Source: a virus
Reading direction: 5' to 3' (one strand)
Virus record (IMG/VR): IMGVR_UViG_3300048444_000202
Location: 1 to 29,979 of that record
Length of the DNA stretch: 29,979 nucleotides
Part shown: piece by piece, positions 8,094 through 16,543 of the stretch
Layout: each line of letters opens with the position of its first letter
Numbering within the stretch: the first letter of the stretch is position 1
Position numbers and translations under genes: made by a program
Notes under the pieces: generated by a model
Told to the model about the DNA's origin: nothing
Seen by the model: the letters and a program-made list of their open reading frames with translations, nothing else
The model's database searches: none

Positions 8094-8306
8094 TTAGTGT
8101 GGATGTGCTTCATCGAATGACGGTAAGGTATCTGCAAGCTTTCCTAGCGCATTGTCACGTTTCGGAATGCCTGTAATACCGTTGTCATTCAGGAATTGAC
8201 GAGCTACGTTGAGTTCTTGGCTTGTTGCTTCTCCAGACTCGATACGCTCAAGAAGCTCTGTGCCAAGTTTCTCGTGTAGCTCAGCGAAAAGGCGGTCTAA
8301 GTTCAT
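8094..8306 (-). CDS. small terminase subunit-like protein (T7 gp18 position)
   Basis: A 70-aa helical protein. The segment GEATSQELNVARQFLNDNGITG resembles small terminase (DNA maturase A) proteins of marine T7-like phages, which recognise the phage DNA and hand it to the large subunit. T7 gp18 is 89 aa, so this one is short. The ATG overlaps the stop of the HNH gene (ATGA), and the large subunit follows after one small gene, close to T7 order. The assignment rests on this motif and on position. Confidence 0.7.
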   Translation of the reverse strand: MNLDRLFAELHEKLGTELLERIESGEATSQELNVARQFLNDNGITGIPKRDNALGKLADTLPSFDEAHPH

Positions 8307-8536
8307 TTGTTACGTCCTCGGTTTTTACGCTTAGACTGCATTCTTAGGTTCTTGCGAGAGTTGTTAAGTGGGTTACGGTCTTTGTGGTCTACGTCCTTAC
8401 CGTCTCCCTTACGTGCCAAGCCTAGCTTGACCATCTTACGTCTCGCTTTGTTTCGAGCAGACCTGCGTTTCCGTTGCTCTGGTTTGCTGTGGTAACGCCT
8501 ATACTCCTCTTTATAATCACGATTTTTCTTCGGCAT
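8303..8536 (-). CDS. HNH endonuclease-like protein
   Basis: A 77-aa very basic protein. The C-terminal half GDGKDVDHKDRNPLNNSRKN followed by LRMQSKRKNRGR fits the HNH signature: D-H pair, N-P-L-N-N and the following N-L-R. The N-terminal half is an arginine/lysine-rich helix that could bind DNA. Small HNH proteins next to terminases in many phages act with the terminase in DNA cleavage for packaging; others are homing nucleases. Without a host intron or obvious insertion footprint, the packaging role seems more likely. It has ATGA coupling to the next gene. Confidence 0.7.
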   Translation of the reverse strand: MPKKNRDYKEEYRRYHSKPEQRKRRSARNKARRKMVKLGLARKGDGKDVDHKDRNPLNNSRKNLRMQSKRKNRGRNK

Positions 8537-8753
8537 ATGAACGCTCCAGCTCTCTTAGACGATTCTCAAAATCACGGTGGATGTAATCCTGAGCAGTCTT
8601 GTTACTGTTTAAGTCCTTGCGGAGGTGAAGAACTTCTGTCCTCAACTCCACAAGCTCGACTGTTGTTTGCATGACCTGTGAACCGAACCAGATAAGCAGA
8701 GCGCATATGATGGTCTGCATGATGTCGCTAAAGTTAATCTTCCGATGGTTCAT
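8517..8753 (-). CDS. one-membrane-segment coiled-coil protein, possible spanin or holin
   Basis: A 78-aa protein with a single hydrophobic segment (IMQTIICALLIWFGSQVM, about residues 11-28) followed by a long charged helix with coiled-coil character. That is the plan of an inner-membrane spanin (Rz) with an N-terminal anchor. It is short for Rz and I see no matching Rz1 lipoprotein, so a holin or a generic membrane protein are alternatives. It overlaps the genes on both sides by about 20 bases, so the group is one translational unit. Confidence 0.5.
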   Translation of the reverse strand: MNHRKINFSDIMQTIICALLIWFGSQVMQTTVELVELRTEVLHLRKDLNSNKTAQDYIHRDFENRLRELERSYAEEKS

Positions 8754-8934
8754 CCTTGCTTAACTCGCTGATTTTCTGGAACAGTTCATTCACAGGCAGA
8801 CCTTTACTAGGGTCTACTTCGATTTCTAGCATCCGACACAGATTCATAACGACTTCGCTCATGCTCTGCATCTGCTTACTCATCTTGTAGTTCTGATAAG
8901 CAAGGTCTCTCACTTCTTGCTCTAAGTTATCCAT
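8734..8934 (-). CDS. coiled-coil hypothetical protein (66 aa)
   Basis: A 66-aa acidic helical protein, rich in E, Q, M and L, beginning MDNLEQEVRDLAYQNYKMSK; no membrane segment. The ribosome site TAGGAGGG is strong. It lies in the lysis/packaging cassette, where T7 has the holin gene 17.5, but it lacks a hydrophobic segment and is not a holin. I do not recognise it. Confidence 0.65.
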   Translation of the reverse strand: MDNLEQEVRDLAYQNYKMSKQMQSMSEVVMNLCRMLEIEVDPSKGLPVNELFQKISELSKDEPSED

Positions 8935-9170: not shown

Positions 9171-9191
9171 CGACCTCCACAAGGGAGGCCG
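9171..9191 (-). terminator. GC-rich hairpin after the tail fibre gene
   Basis: On the minus strand CGGCCTCC pairs with GGAGGTCG (8 bp, one G-U) around CTTGT, followed by only TTT. It starts 5 bases beyond the fibre stop. It may be a weak terminator or an mRNA-processing site protecting the end of the 7-kb fibre message. Confidence 0.45.
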
Positions 9192-9196
9192 CTAGA

Positions 9197-12100
9197 TTAT
9201 TGTTGTACGAATCCGACAGCTAACCATCGGACATTTCGAGTCTTAGGCGTCTCGTTCTCAAGAAGAACTGAGGTTGTACTAAATGTTCTGACGTAAGCGC
9301 CTTCATAATTGTTGTCAGATGAAGAAGAATCACGATTGGCAATTACTTGGAACACCTGAGTGAAGCGTTTAGGGAAGTAGTCATATTCTGTGCTATTGCT
9401 ACCTATCGAGGTCGAACCCCACTGGTAACAGAAGCCTGTTTCCTTATCTATCCAGTAGCCAGTTGATGCCTTACTGAACTCGTTCTTCTTGAATGCAGCC
9501 TTAACGACACCTGTGTACTTCGGCTTGATGCCTCCGCTAGTGCCTGTTCCAGAGGTTGTTCTGGTAACTTTGGCTCGGTATCGTATGTAGCTGCTGGTTG
9601 ACGGAATGGTGTCTGTGACTGTTATATCAGCACTGTAGTAGTAACCTCCGCGAGGAGGAACCATAACCCCAGGTTCGCCTGGAGCTAAGTAATCCTCAAC
9701 GTAAGATGGCTGATACCATCCAGTGACTGTAACAGTCTTAGCACTTCCTACATTCTGCCATGAGCCTCCAGAACCAATCTGACGTTGAATCTGAACGCTA
9801 TATATGGAAGAACTGTATTGGTAGTCAGGATACTGCTCACTGAGCGAGTCAGCGAATCGGAATCTGACTGATACGGTGTCGTCAGCTTTAAGAGTGCTTA
9901 GAGAGCCTGAGTAGACAGACGAGCCGCTTCCGACAGTAGTGTTATAGTCATCTTTAATCCAAGACTCGCTGTCAGCTAAATAATAAGGATAGATCGCCTT
10001 CTTAGCATCCTCAGCGATAGCTTGAGAGTCAACGGAGTTAGGAGCAAGGCCACCGCTAAAGTAACCACCACCATTCCCATCGACATAGAACAAGTCTTTC
10101 TGATTCGTCTTTCCTAACTCACCTTTGTAGAAGTGAATAGGACGCTCTGAATCAGGCTGAAGAAGGAAAGTGCGTTTGCTGCTGCCAGAGCCTTTAGACA
10201 CGTTCAGACCACCTGAAGCAATCAGGTTTGCCTGTACGACACCAGCAGATAACCACGAAGCTCGTACAGTACCCTCTAGCTCAGGAGGAGGTGTGTCAGC
10301 TTGCAAGTCAGAGAATTTTAGCACCTGACTTCCTGCCACATACAAGTCTTGTAAGCTAGTGTGTCCTGATGTACTTGTGATGTGGTTAATCCGCGCTGAG
10401 CTGAGTTCAGAGTACCCTGAAGGCAAATTCTCCAGCGTGGGGTTAATCAAGCTCCAGTTTGACCAACCACTGTTCAACGCAGCGTCTTGGTGTTGGACAA
10501 CATTCAGAGAGTATGAAGGGTTCGTTAAGTAGAGCTGTAGTTTGTAAGTACCATAAGTTCGATCAGATGATGGATAGATAATCCGAGCGTGTCTAATGGT
10601 TTCAGTACTGAAGCGAACTCCCTGAAGAACACTAAGGGCTAACTTGCCGTAAGCTCCAGTTGCCTGAAGAACGATTAGGTTGTGTCGTCCACTCTGCTTG
10701 TCGCTGATTGTAAACTTACCATGAGTTCGAGCTGAACCTTGAGCAATCGTGTACCAGCCGCTAGTTCCGATACTCGCGCTTACTTGGTTCTGCTCTGTCA
10801 GGTATGGCTTACTTGTTACATCATCCCAATGGACACTACTAGCGCTGGCTGCCCTGCCTTGGATGTCTATAGGCCATTCGCCACCAAAGTCTGTTGAATC
10901 AACCTGAAGGAGCAGTTGACGCGGTTGAGTTGCGCTCCATCCGATATGAATATCGTTAGTTCCTTGGTTAGCTCCACCGCCTCGTTGTACTTGAGGTACG
11001 TTAGACACATTGCCTAGTCCTACCTCAGAAGGAGTCGGTTTATGCTTGGTACTATAGACACGACCTCCACGGTCTTCGTAGATTGGAGCGTTAAAGTAGA
11101 AGCTAGGACGGTCAGTGTATATATGGAGATAGTTTGTATTAGCTGCACCAATATCAACATAACCGCTTGAACTTGAGATACGTAAAGTACCCCATTCGTT
11201 TACCGAACCACCTGAAATGTCATTCCAAGTATGAGTGTGACTGCTTGGAGTGAATGTACTAGGCTTGCCTGTAATCTCAGACCAAGAGTGGTTATGGCTA
11301 CTAGGAGTAAATGAGCTTGGCTTGTTGGAAATATCCCCCCATGACACACTGCCAGCTACAGATGCGTACTTAGCTTTAGACTGGAACGTGTACGTGCCAG
11401 AATTACTATGAGATCGCATACCCCAAATGTAACCTTCAGAGTCAACAGAGAAATGCACTGAGCGGGAACTGCTGACTTGAGCTGACAATACCGCAGTGTA
11501 AGTAGGGTTGTTTGTACTGCCTTGGTTCGTGACAGGGGTTACATATACGCCATTTGACTGTCCTCCTGCCTGTGTACCGTTAATGTCAAAGTTACCATTG
11601 AAGTTAATCTCAGTGTACGAGTGACTATGAGAACTAGGAGTGAACTTGCTAGGTTTACCTGTAATCTCATTCCAAGAGTGGCTGTGACTACTCGGAGTAA
11701 AACTGCTAGGCTTACCTGTAATCTCAGACCAAGAATGGCTGTGGCTACTTGGCGTAAAGCTAGTAGGTTTACCTGTTACTTCATTCCAAGTCGGCCAGCG
11801 AGTAGCTGTAGCTGGCTTGCTTTTAATCATTGACCACTCAGTGTTAACAACTAGAGAGTCATCTGAGCCAACTTCTTCCTTGACCTCGATAGTCAAAGAG
11901 CCACCGCTAGTGCCCCATTCACCACTCTTATTGGTTACAGTGACCCAATACTCATAATCCTGCCCTGAAGTTGGTAAGTTGGCAGTGAATGTTTCTTCCT
12001 CCCACAAGTTGCTGTGGTAGGTGAGGGGTATTGTGTCTTCGGTATACACACGCCCAGTGAAACTGCCAGTTCCGACAGTCTCTACAGTCGTGCTACCTAC

Positions 12101-15100
12101 TTTCTGTCGTTTCACAGCGAATGAGATGCTAGGCACAGTCGGACGTGTTGTACGTCCTTCGCCGAACCTAACACCTCCAGAAGCTCGTATAGTAACCTCA
12201 GTGTACTTACCGCCTGACTTGATTACAGGATTGTCAGGATTGCCTTGCTGAGCAGCGTAAAGGTTCAGACCAGTGTAAGGCATACCAGAGGCTGTACGAC
12301 TTCCTCCAGTCAACTGAGCGTCAGCTGAACGCATGACTAAACGATCTCGGAATGATGAATGCAAGTCCTTCCAGAGAATCTGTTCGTCCTGCTGCAAAGT
12401 GAAGTCACCTTCAATGGTAGTATTACCTAGCTGAGCGCGTTTCTCAGTGTTGTAGACAGACTCGATGTTGACAATCGAGTTAGCCTCAAGAGTTACCATT
12501 CTCGCCTTGTCTATATAGACGATTCCATCACGTATAGTGAATGGGAATATATCTACTCCAGCATCGTGAGTGAAACCTATCTGGTCAGCTTGGAACAATA
12601 GAGCAGTACCTAATGGGTCTGCTATAGCCCCAATACCAGCAACACGTCCGTCACTCTGGACTTTCAGTGAGTAGAAGGCTTCGTCTTCAGTTGCCCTAAC
12701 ACGTTCTTCAACAGCCTGAAGATCGGCAAAGTCCATCACGGAGAGGTCTGAGAGAACACAAGAACCATCACCTCCTGAGTAGTTACTAATAAACACCAGA
12801 CGGATGTACTTAGTTCCTTCTCGGAAGTTATCGTGTGCATCACCTATGCCTCCAATAAACCCTGTGACTTCCACAAGACCATCAGCAGCTGTGTACGTGC
12901 TTCCTGATAACGTGCAATACCTGTGAGTACCTGCGCCACCTGAGATAAAGTTGAAGTTCTCATCAAGGGTTACAACACCAACGTAGAAACGGTTCTTGTT
13001 CGGGTCAGTGGAGTCAGTGAGAACCTTGAAACGTGCTTCAACCTTATAGGTCTTATTAGGGTCAACACGCATCATAGGTCTTGTGTACCACCAACCGCCT
13101 TGAGAGAACACTACACCGTCAGGACTGTCTGACACATTACTAGAGGCTACAGGCGTTACCTCGCCAGTGTAGTCAGTGGATATGGCATTGGCGGTATTTA
13201 TACGCATACCTGTTCCTGTCGCATAACTGACTTGAGTTACTAGCTCTGCTTTATCAGAAGCATCCGCAGCTGCTTGTATCGCTACGTTCGCCTCTTGCAT
13301 GGCCTGTGTTGCAGATTGCTCAGCGTTGTTCTCTGCTTGAGCTGCTTGACTCGCTGAGTTTGCAGCGTTAGCCTCTGAAGTTGCTGCATTAGCCTCTGAG
13401 TTTGCAGCGTTAGACTCTGAAGTTGCAGCGTTAGACTCTGAAGTTGCAGCGTTAGAAGCTGAGCTTGAAGCTTGACTTTGCGCTGTCAGTGCAACATTAG
13501 CGTGTCCTTCTGCGTCTGTGCTTGCGTTAACAGCAGCAGTTGCTTCTTGTTCTGCAATGTTCTTAGCGGCAACCGCTTCGTCACGAGCTGTCTCAGCATC
13601 TGATTGAGCAGACTGTGCAGCGTCTCTTGCCTGTTCAGATTTAGTTTGAGCTACGAGTGAAGCGCTTGCGCTACCTTCCGCATCGGTTTTAGATTGTGCA
13701 GCTGCAACAGCAGATTGCTCAGCGTTACCAGCAGCATCCACAGCATCTGTCTTAGCAACCAATGCAGCACTAGCATAACCTTCAGCGTCTGTGCGTGCCT
13801 GAACAGCAGCCTGAGCATCTAGCCTCGCAGCATTAGCAGAATCAGCAGCATCACTTGCGGATTGAGCAGCGTTAGCTTCTGAGGTCGCAGCGTTTGACTC
13901 AGATGTTGCCGCGTTAGTTGCAGAGGTTTGTGCTTGTGTTCTAGCGGTTAAAGCAGATGTAGCGTTGCCCTCAGCGTCTGTCTTAGCTAATACCGCAGCG
14001 TCAGCAGCGTCCTGAGCATCACTGCTTGCAGTTAAAGCAGTTTGAGCGTGGCCTTGTGCGTTGGTCTCAGCAGTAACAGCTGATTGAGCAGATGACTGTG
14101 CATTACCAGCAGCATCTTCAGCCTGAGTCTTAGCTGTTAGTGCAGCCTGAGCAGAACCATCAGCTTCCGTTGCAGCTGTTGCAGCAGCTTGGGCATCAAG
14201 GCTTGCCGCACTAGCAGAGTCAGCAGCATCACTGGCTGATTGAGCAGCGTTTGTCTCAGCGGTTTCAGCCTTAGTTCTTGCAGTTAGAGCAGCTGTCGCT
14301 GAACCGTCAGCTTCAGTAGCAGCACTTGCAGCAGCCTGTGCGTCAAGGCTTGCAGCACTAGCAGAATCAGCGGCATCACTTGCAGCTGACTGTGCTTGGG
14401 TTTTAGCAGTCAACGCAGCTGTCGCTGAACCGTCAGCTTCTGTAGCAGCAGTGGCAGCAGCTTGTGCATCGAGTCTAGCGGCATCTGCCGAATCTGCTGC
14501 ATCACTTGCAGAGGTTTCAGCCTGAGTTCTTGCAGTTAGCGCTGCTGTAGCAGAGCCATCAGCTTCAGTCGCTGCCGTTGCAGCAGCTTGTGCAGAGTTC
14601 TCAGCTTCCGTCTTTGCAGTGAGTGCGGCCTGAGCTGAACCGTCAGCTTCAGTGGCAGCAGTAGCGGCAGCTTGTGCTGAAAGGCTTGCATTGGTGGCGT
14701 AGTTCTCAGCGTCAGTCTTAGCGGTCAACGCAGCTGTTGCAGCTCCCTCAGCGTCAGTCTTAGCGATTGTCGCTGCTTGCGCGTCAGTATTTGTTTGGGT
14801 CGCTGAGTTTTCCGCAGCGGTCTGAGCTGCTAGAGCTGCTTGAGCAGAGCCGTCTGCATCAGTCGCAGCAGATACAGCTGCCGTAGCATGGGTCTCAGCT
14901 TGGTCACGGAAGTTCTTAGCGTCAGTGCTTGCAGTTAATGCGGCCTGAGCTGAACCGTCAGCTTCTGTGGCAGCGGTAACAGCAGCTTGAGCATTAGTCT
15001 CTGCGATAACAGCTGAGTTAGCTGCTTCTGTGGCTTTCTGCGTGGCATTAGTCTCAGCTACGAGTGCAGCACTTGCAGCTCCCTCAGCATCAGTCTTGGC

Positions 15101-16207
15101 TAAAACAGCAGCATCAGCAGCAGCTACAGCCTCTCCTGAGGCATCTACAGCAGTATTTTTGCTAACAAGCGCAGCGGCAGCCTCGCCTTGAGCATTCTCA
15201 TAGGCTATTACAGCTGAGCCACTTGCTTCAGCGGCTAAACCTGCTTGAACTATTGCTTCATCCTTCGCAGCTACAGCAGCATCCTTCGCAGCTACAGCGT
15301 CAGTTACAGCTGAGGCCGTGTCAGCTACAGCTTGGTCTGCCGTTTCTTGGGCTTGGGTCGCATAAGTCTGTGCTTGTGTCGCTAAGTTATCTGCTCGGTC
15401 AGCTGCTTCAGTGGCGGTTGCGACTGCTTGGTCTGCACTAGCTTTTGCAGCTTCAGCGTTACTTGCAGCTAACTCAGCCTCATCACGAGCATTTTGCGCT
15501 AAACTTGTTGCTTCATTTAGAGCCGTGTAATCAAGCTCAATGGCCGCTGCCAGTTCAGCCTCAAACATTTCACGCCTAATCCATCCCTCTCTAAGGTCGA
15601 GGCGAGGCGCATCATTGCCTGTCAGACGTACTGGTTTGCTCCAAGTTGTCATACACTGACCAGTAGAGCCGTTCTTCCAACATTGAGTCATCCATAAGTG
15701 GTAAGTCACCTCAGGGTCTTCACTTACTGGTTCTTCAGGAATGTCAGGAAGCCAACCGAAAGGCTGAGGGTCAAAAGGTGTTGGAGTAGCTGGAGCTTCA
15801 GTAGCCCATTGGAATCGCTGCTCAGGGTAGTCGCCTTTGTCACCTTTTAGGTTGCTTACATCAGCACCAAGAAGTCCTAGATACAGATCGTCCTCAACCT
15901 CTTGTTGGTTGAAGAATACTTGTAGGTTCGATACGTCTAAGTCTTTCTCGGTGAGAACGCTTGCAGACTGGAAGTCAACTAAGCGTCTGTCTAGTGGGGT
16001 CTGTCTCTTAACACGGACAGTCGCGTCTTTAAGTAGTGGTTGTTGAAGTCGGATTGAGTTATCAGAAAGCCATGTAAAGTTAACTGGATAGTCGTCCACG
16101 TACACATATACATGAGCCTTCTCGATGTATGGGAAGGGAACAGCAAATGTGCTATCCCCTACTTTCGCTTCATAATCCACTACAGCATACAGTGGACGTT
16201 GTTCCAT
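9197..16207 (-). CDS. giant chimeric tail fibre (T7 gp17-type anchor, 2336 aa)
   Basis: Receptor-binding fibre, about four times the length of T7 gp17 (553 aa). Domains: (a) about 1-150, a T7 gp17-type anchor (YAVVDYEAKVGDSTFAVPFP...QTPLDRRLVDFQ) for attachment to the tail; (b) about 215-985, an Ala/Ser/Thr-rich heptad-repeat coiled coil; (c) about 990-1250, a region with AFYSLKVQSDGRVAGIGAIA, typical of the C-terminal part of lambda gpJ-type tip proteins (DUF1983-like); (d) about 1475-1690, five repeats of W-x-E-I-T-G-K-P-S-x-F-T-P-S-S-H-x-H (phage tail repeat, HxH metal-binding type); (e) a variable part; (f) about 2245-2336, a gp53-like receptor tip starting STGYWIDKETGFCYQWG. The ribosome site AAGGAG precedes the ATG, and the upstream stop is adjacent. 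Confidence 0.93.
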   Translation of the reverse strand: MEQRPLYAVVDYEAKVGDSTFAVPFPYIEKAHVYVYVDDYPVNFTWLSDNSIRLQQPLLKDATVRVKRQTPLDRRLVDFQSASVLTEKDLDVSNLQVFFNQQEVEDDLYLGLLGADVSNLKGDKGDYPEQRFQWATEAPATPTPFDPQPFGWLPDIPEEPVSEDPEVTYHLWMTQCWKNGSTGQCMTTWSKPVRLTGNDAPRLDLREGWIRREMFEAELAAAIELDYTALNEATSLAQNARDEAELAASNAEAAKASADQAVATATEAADRADNLATQAQTYATQAQETADQAVADTASAVTDAVAAKDAAVAAKDEAIVQAGLAAEASGSAVIAYENAQGEAAAALVSKNTAVDASGEAVAAADAAVLAKTDAEGAASAALVAETNATQKATEAANSAVIAETNAQAAVTAATEADGSAQAALTASTDAKNFRDQAETHATAAVSAATDADGSAQAALAAQTAAENSATQTNTDAQAATIAKTDAEGAATAALTAKTDAENYATNASLSAQAAATAATEADGSAQAALTAKTEAENSAQAAATAATEADGSATAALTARTQAETSASDAADSADAARLDAQAAATAATEADGSATAALTAKTQAQSAASDAADSASAASLDAQAAASAATEADGSATAALTARTKAETAETNAAQSASDAADSASAASLDAQAAATAATEADGSAQAALTAKTQAEDAAGNAQSSAQSAVTAETNAQGHAQTALTASSDAQDAADAAVLAKTDAEGNATSALTARTQAQTSATNAATSESNAATSEANAAQSASDAADSANAARLDAQAAVQARTDAEGYASAALVAKTDAVDAAGNAEQSAVAAAQSKTDAEGSASASLVAQTKSEQARDAAQSAQSDAETARDEAVAAKNIAEQEATAAVNASTDAEGHANVALTAQSQASSSASNAATSESNAATSESNAANSEANAATSEANAANSASQAAQAENNAEQSATQAMQEANVAIQAAADASDKAELVTQVSYATGTGMRINTANAISTDYTGEVTPVASSNVSDSPDGVVFSQGGWWYTRPMMRVDPNKTYKVEARFKVLTDSTDPNKNRFYVGVVTLDENFNFISGGAGTHRYCTLSGSTYTAADGLVEVTGFIGGIGDAHDNFREGTKYIRLVFISNYSGGDGSCVLSDLSVMDFADLQAVEERVRATEDEAFYSLKVQSDGRVAGIGAIADPLGTALLFQADQIGFTHDAGVDIFPFTIRDGIVYIDKARMVTLEANSIVNIESVYNTEKRAQLGNTTIEGDFTLQQDEQILWKDLHSSFRDRLVMRSADAQLTGGSRTASGMPYTGLNLYAAQQGNPDNPVIKSGGKYTEVTIRASGGVRFGEGRTTRPTVPSISFAVKRQKVGSTTVETVGTGSFTGRVYTEDTIPLTYHSNLWEEETFTANLPTSGQDYEYWVTVTNKSGEWGTSGGSLTIEVKEEVGSDDSLVVNTEWSMIKSKPATATRWPTWNEVTGKPTSFTPSSHSHSWSEITGKPSSFTPSSHSHSWNEITGKPSKFTPSSHSHSYTEINFNGNFDINGTQAGGQSNGVYVTPVTNQGSTNNPTYTAVLSAQVSSSRSVHFSVDSEGYIWGMRSHSNSGTYTFQSKAKYASVAGSVSWGDISNKPSSFTPSSHNHSWSEITGKPSTFTPSSHTHTWNDISGGSVNEWGTLRISSSSGYVDIGAANTNYLHIYTDRPSFYFNAPIYEDRGGRVYSTKHKPTPSEVGLGNVSNVPQVQRGGGANQGTNDIHIGWSATQPRQLLLQVDSTDFGGEWPIDIQGRAASASSVHWDDVTSKPYLTEQNQVSASIGTSGWYTIAQGSARTHGKFTISDKQSGRHNLIVLQATGAYGKLALSVLQGVRFSTETIRHARIIYPSSDRTYGTYKLQLYLTNPSYSLNVVQHQDAALNSGWSNWSLINPTLENLPSGYSELSSARINHITSTSGHTSLQDLYVAGSQVLKFSDLQADTPPPELEGTVRASWLSAGVVQANLIASGGLNVSKGSGSSKRTFLLQPDSERPIHFYKGELGKTNQKDLFYVDGNGGGYFSGGLAPNSVDSQAIAEDAKKAIYPYYLADSESWIKDDYNTTVGSGSSVYSGSLSTLKADDTVSVRFRFADSLSEQYPDYQYSSSIYSVQIQRQIGSGGSWQNVGSAKTVTVTGWYQPSYVEDYLAPGEPGVMVPPRGGYYYSADITVTDTIPSTSSYIRYRAKVTRTTSGTGTSGGIKPKYTGVVKAAFKKNEFSKASTGYWIDKETGFCYQWGSTSIGSNSTEYDYFPKRFTQVFQVIANRDSSSSDNNYEGAYVRTFSTTSVLLENETPKTRNVRWLAVGFVQQ
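13300..15530 (-). repeat. heptad-coding DNA repeats in the fibre stalk
   Basis: Degenerate repeats encode heptads with Ala at two regular positions. Units starting at TEADGS are 28, 42, 42 and 49 residues long, all multiples of seven, so length changes have kept the coiled-coil register. The clearest tandem part is five 21-bp units at 13359-13463 (consensus gttgcagcgttagactctgaa). Confidence 0.85.
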
Positions 16208-16543
16208 TTACACTCCTTCTAATTCATCTACTCTATCCTGTAGCTCCTGTACCTTCTGGAATACCTGAATCAGAGCGTCATCGAGGTCAACTTCACGGAG
16301 AATCGAGACATCAGTGAAGTCCACTTGCCGTACATCAATTTCCGTGTAGCGCTTAATGACTACTTCCTCACCGCCTTGGCACTCAAAACCAAGCGTCACA
16401 AGACCATTACTTACTGTGTAATCAGCCTCGTTCTGTTTAGTGCCGTTGATGTAAACTAAGATTTTGTCTTGGGAGCGGTAAGGAAAACTGAAGGTAAAGT
16501 CTGTTTGGTACTGAATTGCTACATATTTAGCTGTAGCGAGCAT
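16208..16543 (-). CDS. stand-alone gp17-type anchor domain protein, possible fibre adaptor
   Basis: A 111-aa protein resembling only the N-terminal anchor of T7 gp17: YQTDFTFSFPYRSQDKILVYINGTKQ, then YTEIDVRQVDFTDVSILREVDLD, and a C-terminal coiled coil (VQKVQEL-type). It parallels the first 120 residues of the fibre encoded next: FPY, then an R-x-V-D-F motif, then 'S-x-L-x-E-x-D-L-D'. Phages with two receptor-binding proteins often use such a short adaptor to join a second fibre to the tail. It lies between gp16 and the fibre gene with an SD (GGAGG) before its ATG. No second fibre gene is in the window. Confidence 0.8.
   Translation of the reverse strand: MLATAKYVAIQYQTDFTFSFPYRSQDKILVYINGTKQNEADYTVSNGLVTLGFECQGGEEVVIKRYTEIDVRQVDFTDVSILREVDLDDALIQVFQKVQELQDRVDELEGV

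Follow-up and report, generated by a model that had tools for sequence, protein, structure and literature searches.

A giant tail fibre of a T7-like phage carries in one chain modules that some relatives encode in two adjacent genes

The common picture of a T7-like phage has six short fibres, each the product of a single gene. A partial viral contig of 29,979 bases (IMG/VR record IMGVR_UViG_3300048444_000202; the whole stretch was analysed and is called the window below) carries a long tail-fibre gene (P0001; 9197..16207, minus strand) encoding 2336 aa. The initial annotation described it as a chimera in which a T7 anchor, a long coil, a gpJ-like domain, HxH repeats and a gp53-like tip are joined, and took this as an exchange between tail types that could provide new hosts. 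The gene is an intact ORF with an ATG start, immediately preceded by a Shine-Dalgarno-like AAGGAG, and it runs uninterrupted over 23% of the window, as the earlier estimate of nearly a quarter implied. Its product was the longest among the T7-anchor ORFs examined, the runners-up having 1814 and 1189 aa. No close relative of the whole fibre could be identified in viral or genome contigs by single-protein search, and an NCBIfam scan returned no fibre family. Directly 3' of the stop codon lies a G+C-rich hairpin (GGCCTCC..GGAGGTC, ~9172-9189) that appears terminator-like by eye. A possible fibre chaperone of 66 aa (8734..8934, minus strand) was weakly matched by phrog_1002 'tail fiber chaperone' (E=0.0013), and a small HNH_3 protein (E=5e-7) is encoded at 8303-8536, with the small terminase gene on one side and the fibre gene on the other.

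The genomic context is that of a T7-like phage. All genes of the structural block are on the minus strand: portal, scaffold-like protein, Gp10A-like capsid, tail tube A-like protein, nozzle, gp13-like protein and T7_gp14, continued by two internal virion proteins and a 111-aa anchor gene; then come the fibre gene, small genes and the terminase. The terminase contains the T7 terminase nuclease domain of Pfam and is closest (65%) to a locus in the Marinobacter similis genome. A tyrosine integrase gene (PF00589, E=4e-23) is paired with a MarR-like regulator gene at 241-1630, the latter scoring 26.9 bits against MarR_2, just below the cut-off of 27. The same pair has been described in the T7-like phage LUZ100 (PMC10134795), and the nearest matches of the integrase are its counterparts in Desulfovibrio phage ProddE, LUZ100 and Bordetella phage BB8. 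On the basis of the structural block and the LUZ100-type pair, the window belongs to a short-tailed, T7-like phage that is probably temperate. On the contig the integrase comes after the terminase, which fits a circularly permuted T7-like genome.

The modules proposed for the fibre were confirmed. The anchor (residues 7-106; 15890..16189, minus strand) matched PF03906 in a Pfam scan (E=2e-16; 60.5 bits, cut-off 25.2) and was 45% identical to the anchor of gp014c of Caulobacter phage S2B; together with the position of the gene in a T7-like structural operon, this bears out the podovirus anchor of the initial annotation. It is followed by an Ala-rich coiled coil of ~770 aa (residues ~215-985; 13253..15565, minus strand), in which hydrophobic periodicity peaked at 3.50 residues with a power of 19.7, compared with 0.4 at 3.67, and in which motifs of the D-A-x-G type occur from residue 338 to 898 with every spacing over these 560 residues a multiple of 7. 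Sequence periodicity of this kind marks the region as a real coiled coil. As a fully extended helix it would span up to ~114 nm (0.1485 nm per residue), and an L-shaped tail fibre in the PDB was a weak match for residues 619-832 (E=0.002). Toward the C-terminus, HxH repeats of the FTPSSHSHSWSEITGKP type (residues 1473-1666; 11210..11791, minus strand) contain five HxH motifs, at residues 1489, 1508, 1527, 1638 and 1657. They are homologous to the repeats of locus L084 (E=2e-30), of Mycobacterium phage jiawei (E=1e-26) and of L013, L015 and L016. The chain ends in a Gp53-like tip (residues 2257-2332 of 2336; 9212..9439, minus strand) that scored 28.7 bits against PF21882 in the Pfam scan (cut-off 24.9; E=2e-6), and thus the proposed gp53-type end also holds.

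A long repetitive coil in a metagenome-type virus record might suggest that the gene was falsely joined or expanded during assembly. However, the longest exact DNA repeat within the gene is 34 nt, which makes an artefact of the coil unlikely; the coil repeats are merely 60-85% alike, and the reading frame and heptad register are unbroken throughout. In addition, an independent 1814-aa fibre (L178:3357-8798) consists of an anchor, very long coil-like repeats and a gpJ shaft, without HxH repeats. We consider an assembly artefact very improbable.

The gpJ-type segment required a closer look. The motif AFYSLKVQSDGRVAGIG lies at residues ~1177-1193, within a shaft domain at residues ~1176-1250 (12458..12682, minus strand) that PF09327 matched when the segment was isolated: residues 1159-1282 scanned alone gave a modest 27.0 bits (cut-off 22, E=4e-6). 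PF09327 was missed when the whole fibre was scanned (E<=0.1), possibly because the coil is biased. With a profile built from other phages, the window being left out, tiles over the gpJ-type region outscored 2000 shuffles. Among proteins with gpJ hub domains, the nearest pairwise match came from Halomonas phage H4907, whose gpJ (38% identity over 60 aa) is adjoined by two tail-tip assembly genes. BLAST of the window fibre against lambda gpJ returned no pairwise match, and the source is therefore the gpJ family and not lambda. A PDB search with the segment returned no match, and an AlphaFold model of residues 988-1298 from 9 sequences had a mean pLDDT of 45, too low to be of use. The link between the middle of the fibre and gpJ-type proteins, which profile searches might have failed to find, thus stood; all modules of the proposed chimera are accounted for by PF03906, the heptad register, PF09327, the five HxH motifs and PF21882.

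The part of gpJ that is present matters for its meaning. The domain order of gpJ has been described as hub, FNIII, alpha-helical shaft, straight fibre and receptor-binding domain (PMC11101478). In lambda gpJ the hub is N-terminal to PF09327, and the second Ig domain (716-818) is followed by PF09327 (845-972) and by the receptor-binding PF12421 (1001-1132); the PF09327 region is the helical shaft plus straight fibre. The window fibre shares this shaft domain with lambda gpJ, the central fibre of another tail type, but lacks Pfam matches both to the hub domains PF13550/PF24801, which lambda and H4907 have, and to PF12421, which lambda has. Thus, the tie between the middle and gpJ-type proteins holds, but in a more limited form than first proposed: only a shaft piece is there. 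Since PF09327 is neither hub nor receptor-binding end, the gpJ segment alone says nothing about new hosts, and its reading as a tail-tip or host-range module could not be maintained. From its position after the coil, the segment would rather be a helix-to-beta shaft adaptor than a host-range element.

We also examined how often such a combination occurs. T7-anchor ORFs were gathered from three scans of viral contigs, one genome scan and named phages; it should be noted that the last scan was selected on the gpJ domain, that L019 and L022 are close variants and that the loci share ancestry. In a whole-record family search, PF09327 was found in the frame of the anchor in 9 of 26 records, in 8 of them above the cut-off. 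With our own profile, anchor and gpJ shaft were found together in 21 of 107 other anchor ORFs, including those of Caulobacter phage S2B and Mycobacterium phage jiawei. The mixture is therefore neither unique nor a one-off exchange. Among loci gathered by anchor or terminase, a separate HxH gene (at least three HxH motifs, at most 5 kb downstream) accompanied 7 of 10 gpJ-positive but 3 of 76 gpJ-negative loci (Fisher p=2e-6, a value that overstates independence, since the loci share descent and were in part selected by query). In the widened set, such a gene was present in 12 of the 21 gpJ-positive loci and no HxH partner was detected in the other 9, S2B among them. HxH repeats were found inside none of the 21 gpJ-positive anchor ORFs, and both halves occur in one chain only in the window. 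In four loci (jiawei, L168, L179 and L181) PF21882 matched the end of the downstream HxH gene (E=1e-14 to 2e-17), and the order of modules in the split loci with a Gp53-like tip is that of the single chain of the window. The only isolate with the full split set is jiawei.

These results lead us to favor, with some reserve, the reading that the window fibre is one giant chain of an integrase-carrying T7-like phage that matches two adjacent genes of its relatives joined. The relatives' counterparts would be a proximal protein with anchor and gpJ shaft and a distal protein with HxH repeats and tip. That the window joins in one chain and in the same order what the relatives split is a Rosetta-stone pattern, and it suggests a fibre made of two pieces in the split phages. 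Three copies of the chain might form a trimer whose N-terminal anchor would dock on the tail, following T7 logic. The 770-residue coil would keep the binding end far from the capsid, by ~114 nm on the estimate above, and the gpJ-type segment could convert a three-helix coil into a shaft of the beta-prism type. In the HxH repeats, histidines might bind metal along the axis and so stiffen the distal needle, and contact with the host surface would fall to the Gp53-like end, perhaps joined by the domains at residues 1045-1170 and 1809-1962.

Residues 1045-1170 (12698..13075, minus strand) are 36-37% identical to receptor-binding proteins of Bacillus phages FADO/PJN02 (E=8e-11); they had no Pfam match and are probably a carbohydrate-binding-like beta sandwich. 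Residues 1809-1962 (10322..10783, minus strand) share 35% identity with the tail fibre of the T5-like Vibrio phage KIT04 (E=1e-11), and residues 1719-1775 found their best matches in jumbo phages. Since the two middle domains match best in unrelated phages, module exchange has also shaped the fibre gene. It could even be that the whole chain is a free mosaic of unrelated modules, all common in tail fibres, and that its likeness to two genes is coincidental. In L084, L085 and L114 a T7 anchor is followed by HxH repeats and gpJ is absent, L084 having a coil and ten HxH motifs. No fusion junction was found between the gpJ and HxH parts: residues 1290-1460 did not resemble the C-terminal ends of split proximal proteins, with higher scores for shuffles, and hence no fusion point could be placed. 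A free mosaic is nevertheless doubtful in our opinion, because in T7-like loci the gpJ shaft is associated with a separate HxH gene and four loci also share the tip family, in the order of the window.

Another possibility is that the HxH protein of the split phages is an independent second receptor-binding protein and that the window merged two such proteins. T7-like phages with dual receptor-binding systems are well known, and KP32, K1-5 and G7C resemble the window in combining T7-like or podovirus anchors with a receptor-binding protein from a second gene (PMC6872550). They differ in that branching occurs through a T4gp10-like domain; neither of the two anchor proteins of the window had a Pfam or PHROG match to this domain. 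The podovirus R22Y offers a further parallel, as its gp12 is an HxH fibre whose domain description includes no anchor (PMC11705849). On the other hand, none of the downstream HxH proteins scanned against Pfam contained a T7 anchor. They therefore need another attachment point, most obviously the proximal fibre, and we regard two independent proteins as rather unlikely. Between the anchor-gpJ gene and the HxH gene of L008, L015 and L034 (jiawei) there are two small genes, of ~100 and 255-281 aa, possibly coding for connector or joint proteins.

Comparison with known systems showed that the window fibre is an extreme form of the modular T7-type tail fibre. It shares with T7 gp17 the PF03906 anchor, the place after the internal virion proteins and the T7-like operon, whereas gp17 has 553 aa (PDB sequence) as compared with 2336 aa and, to our knowledge, lacks a gpJ shaft, HxH repeats and a Gp53-like tip. 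S2B gp014c (604 aa) likewise combines a T7 anchor and PF09327 in a single chain, but is without the long Ala coil, the HxH repeats and the Gp53-like tip; its gpJ part is similar to a tail protein from Caulobacter phage Sansa, a phage with a tape-measure gene. Phage jiawei has the anchor, gpJ shaft, HxH repeats and Gp53-like tip in the same order, but in two genes (540 and 561 aa, ~1.3 kb apart, the second being JDBV08_00490) and without the long coil. HxH motifs also occur in the T4 long tail fibre gp37, where they bind iron, and in gp12 of the Alteromonas podovirus R22Y, for which iron binding was predicted (PMC11705849); unlike in the window, a T7 anchor or gpJ shaft has not been described for either. 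We found no description of a two-piece fibre in T7-like phages in the literature and no open-access paper naming PF09327 and PF03906 together. Two papers on DUF1983 in podoviruses place it either in a separate protein of a short-tailed phage or in the fibre ME3 gp104, with no mention of a T7 anchor.

Taken as a class, the loci indicate a recurrent kind of T7-like phage with the shaft of a siphovirus central fibre, in most cases with a second fibre gene adjoining. The fused gene of the window is a reason to ask whether the split genes make one fibre, and its main value is as a pointer. If they do, many downstream genes annotated as 'hypothetical' or 'tail fiber' in T7-like phages would encode the true receptor-binding half, and a two-piece fibre would bear directly on host prediction.

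Finally, a stand-alone T7 anchor gene of 111 aa (16208..16543, minus strand; PF03906, E=3e-9) abuts the fibre gene, whose ribosome-binding site lies within its last codons. The protein matches structures of the T7 gp17 N-terminus (E=0.0018) and ends in a short heptad-like helix. At 33% identity to the fibre's own anchor, a recent duplicate could be ruled out, and sequence comparison identifies it as a divergent paralogue. No other stand-alone anchor as short was seen among the T7-anchor ORFs examined, and a single-protein search of viral contigs returned no close relatives. The protein could serve as an adaptor, take up fibre sites alongside the fibre, or be a remnant; Klebsiella phage 2044-307w has been described as having a truncated first receptor-binding protein (PMC6872550). 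Quite tentatively, a T7-like group might build a jointed two-protein fibre, with T7 anchor, coil and gpJ-type shaft in the proximal piece and HxH repeats and a receptor-binding tip in the distal one; the window phage would be a natural fusion of the two, and its 111-aa anchor would either share the fibre sites on the tail or act there as an adaptor. Tandem anchors were also observed elsewhere: L045:330-3707, from Devosia sp. 66-22, encodes a tandem of two complete T7-anchor fibres (650 and ~458 aa), and L018 has a similar tandem pair that is cut by the contig end.
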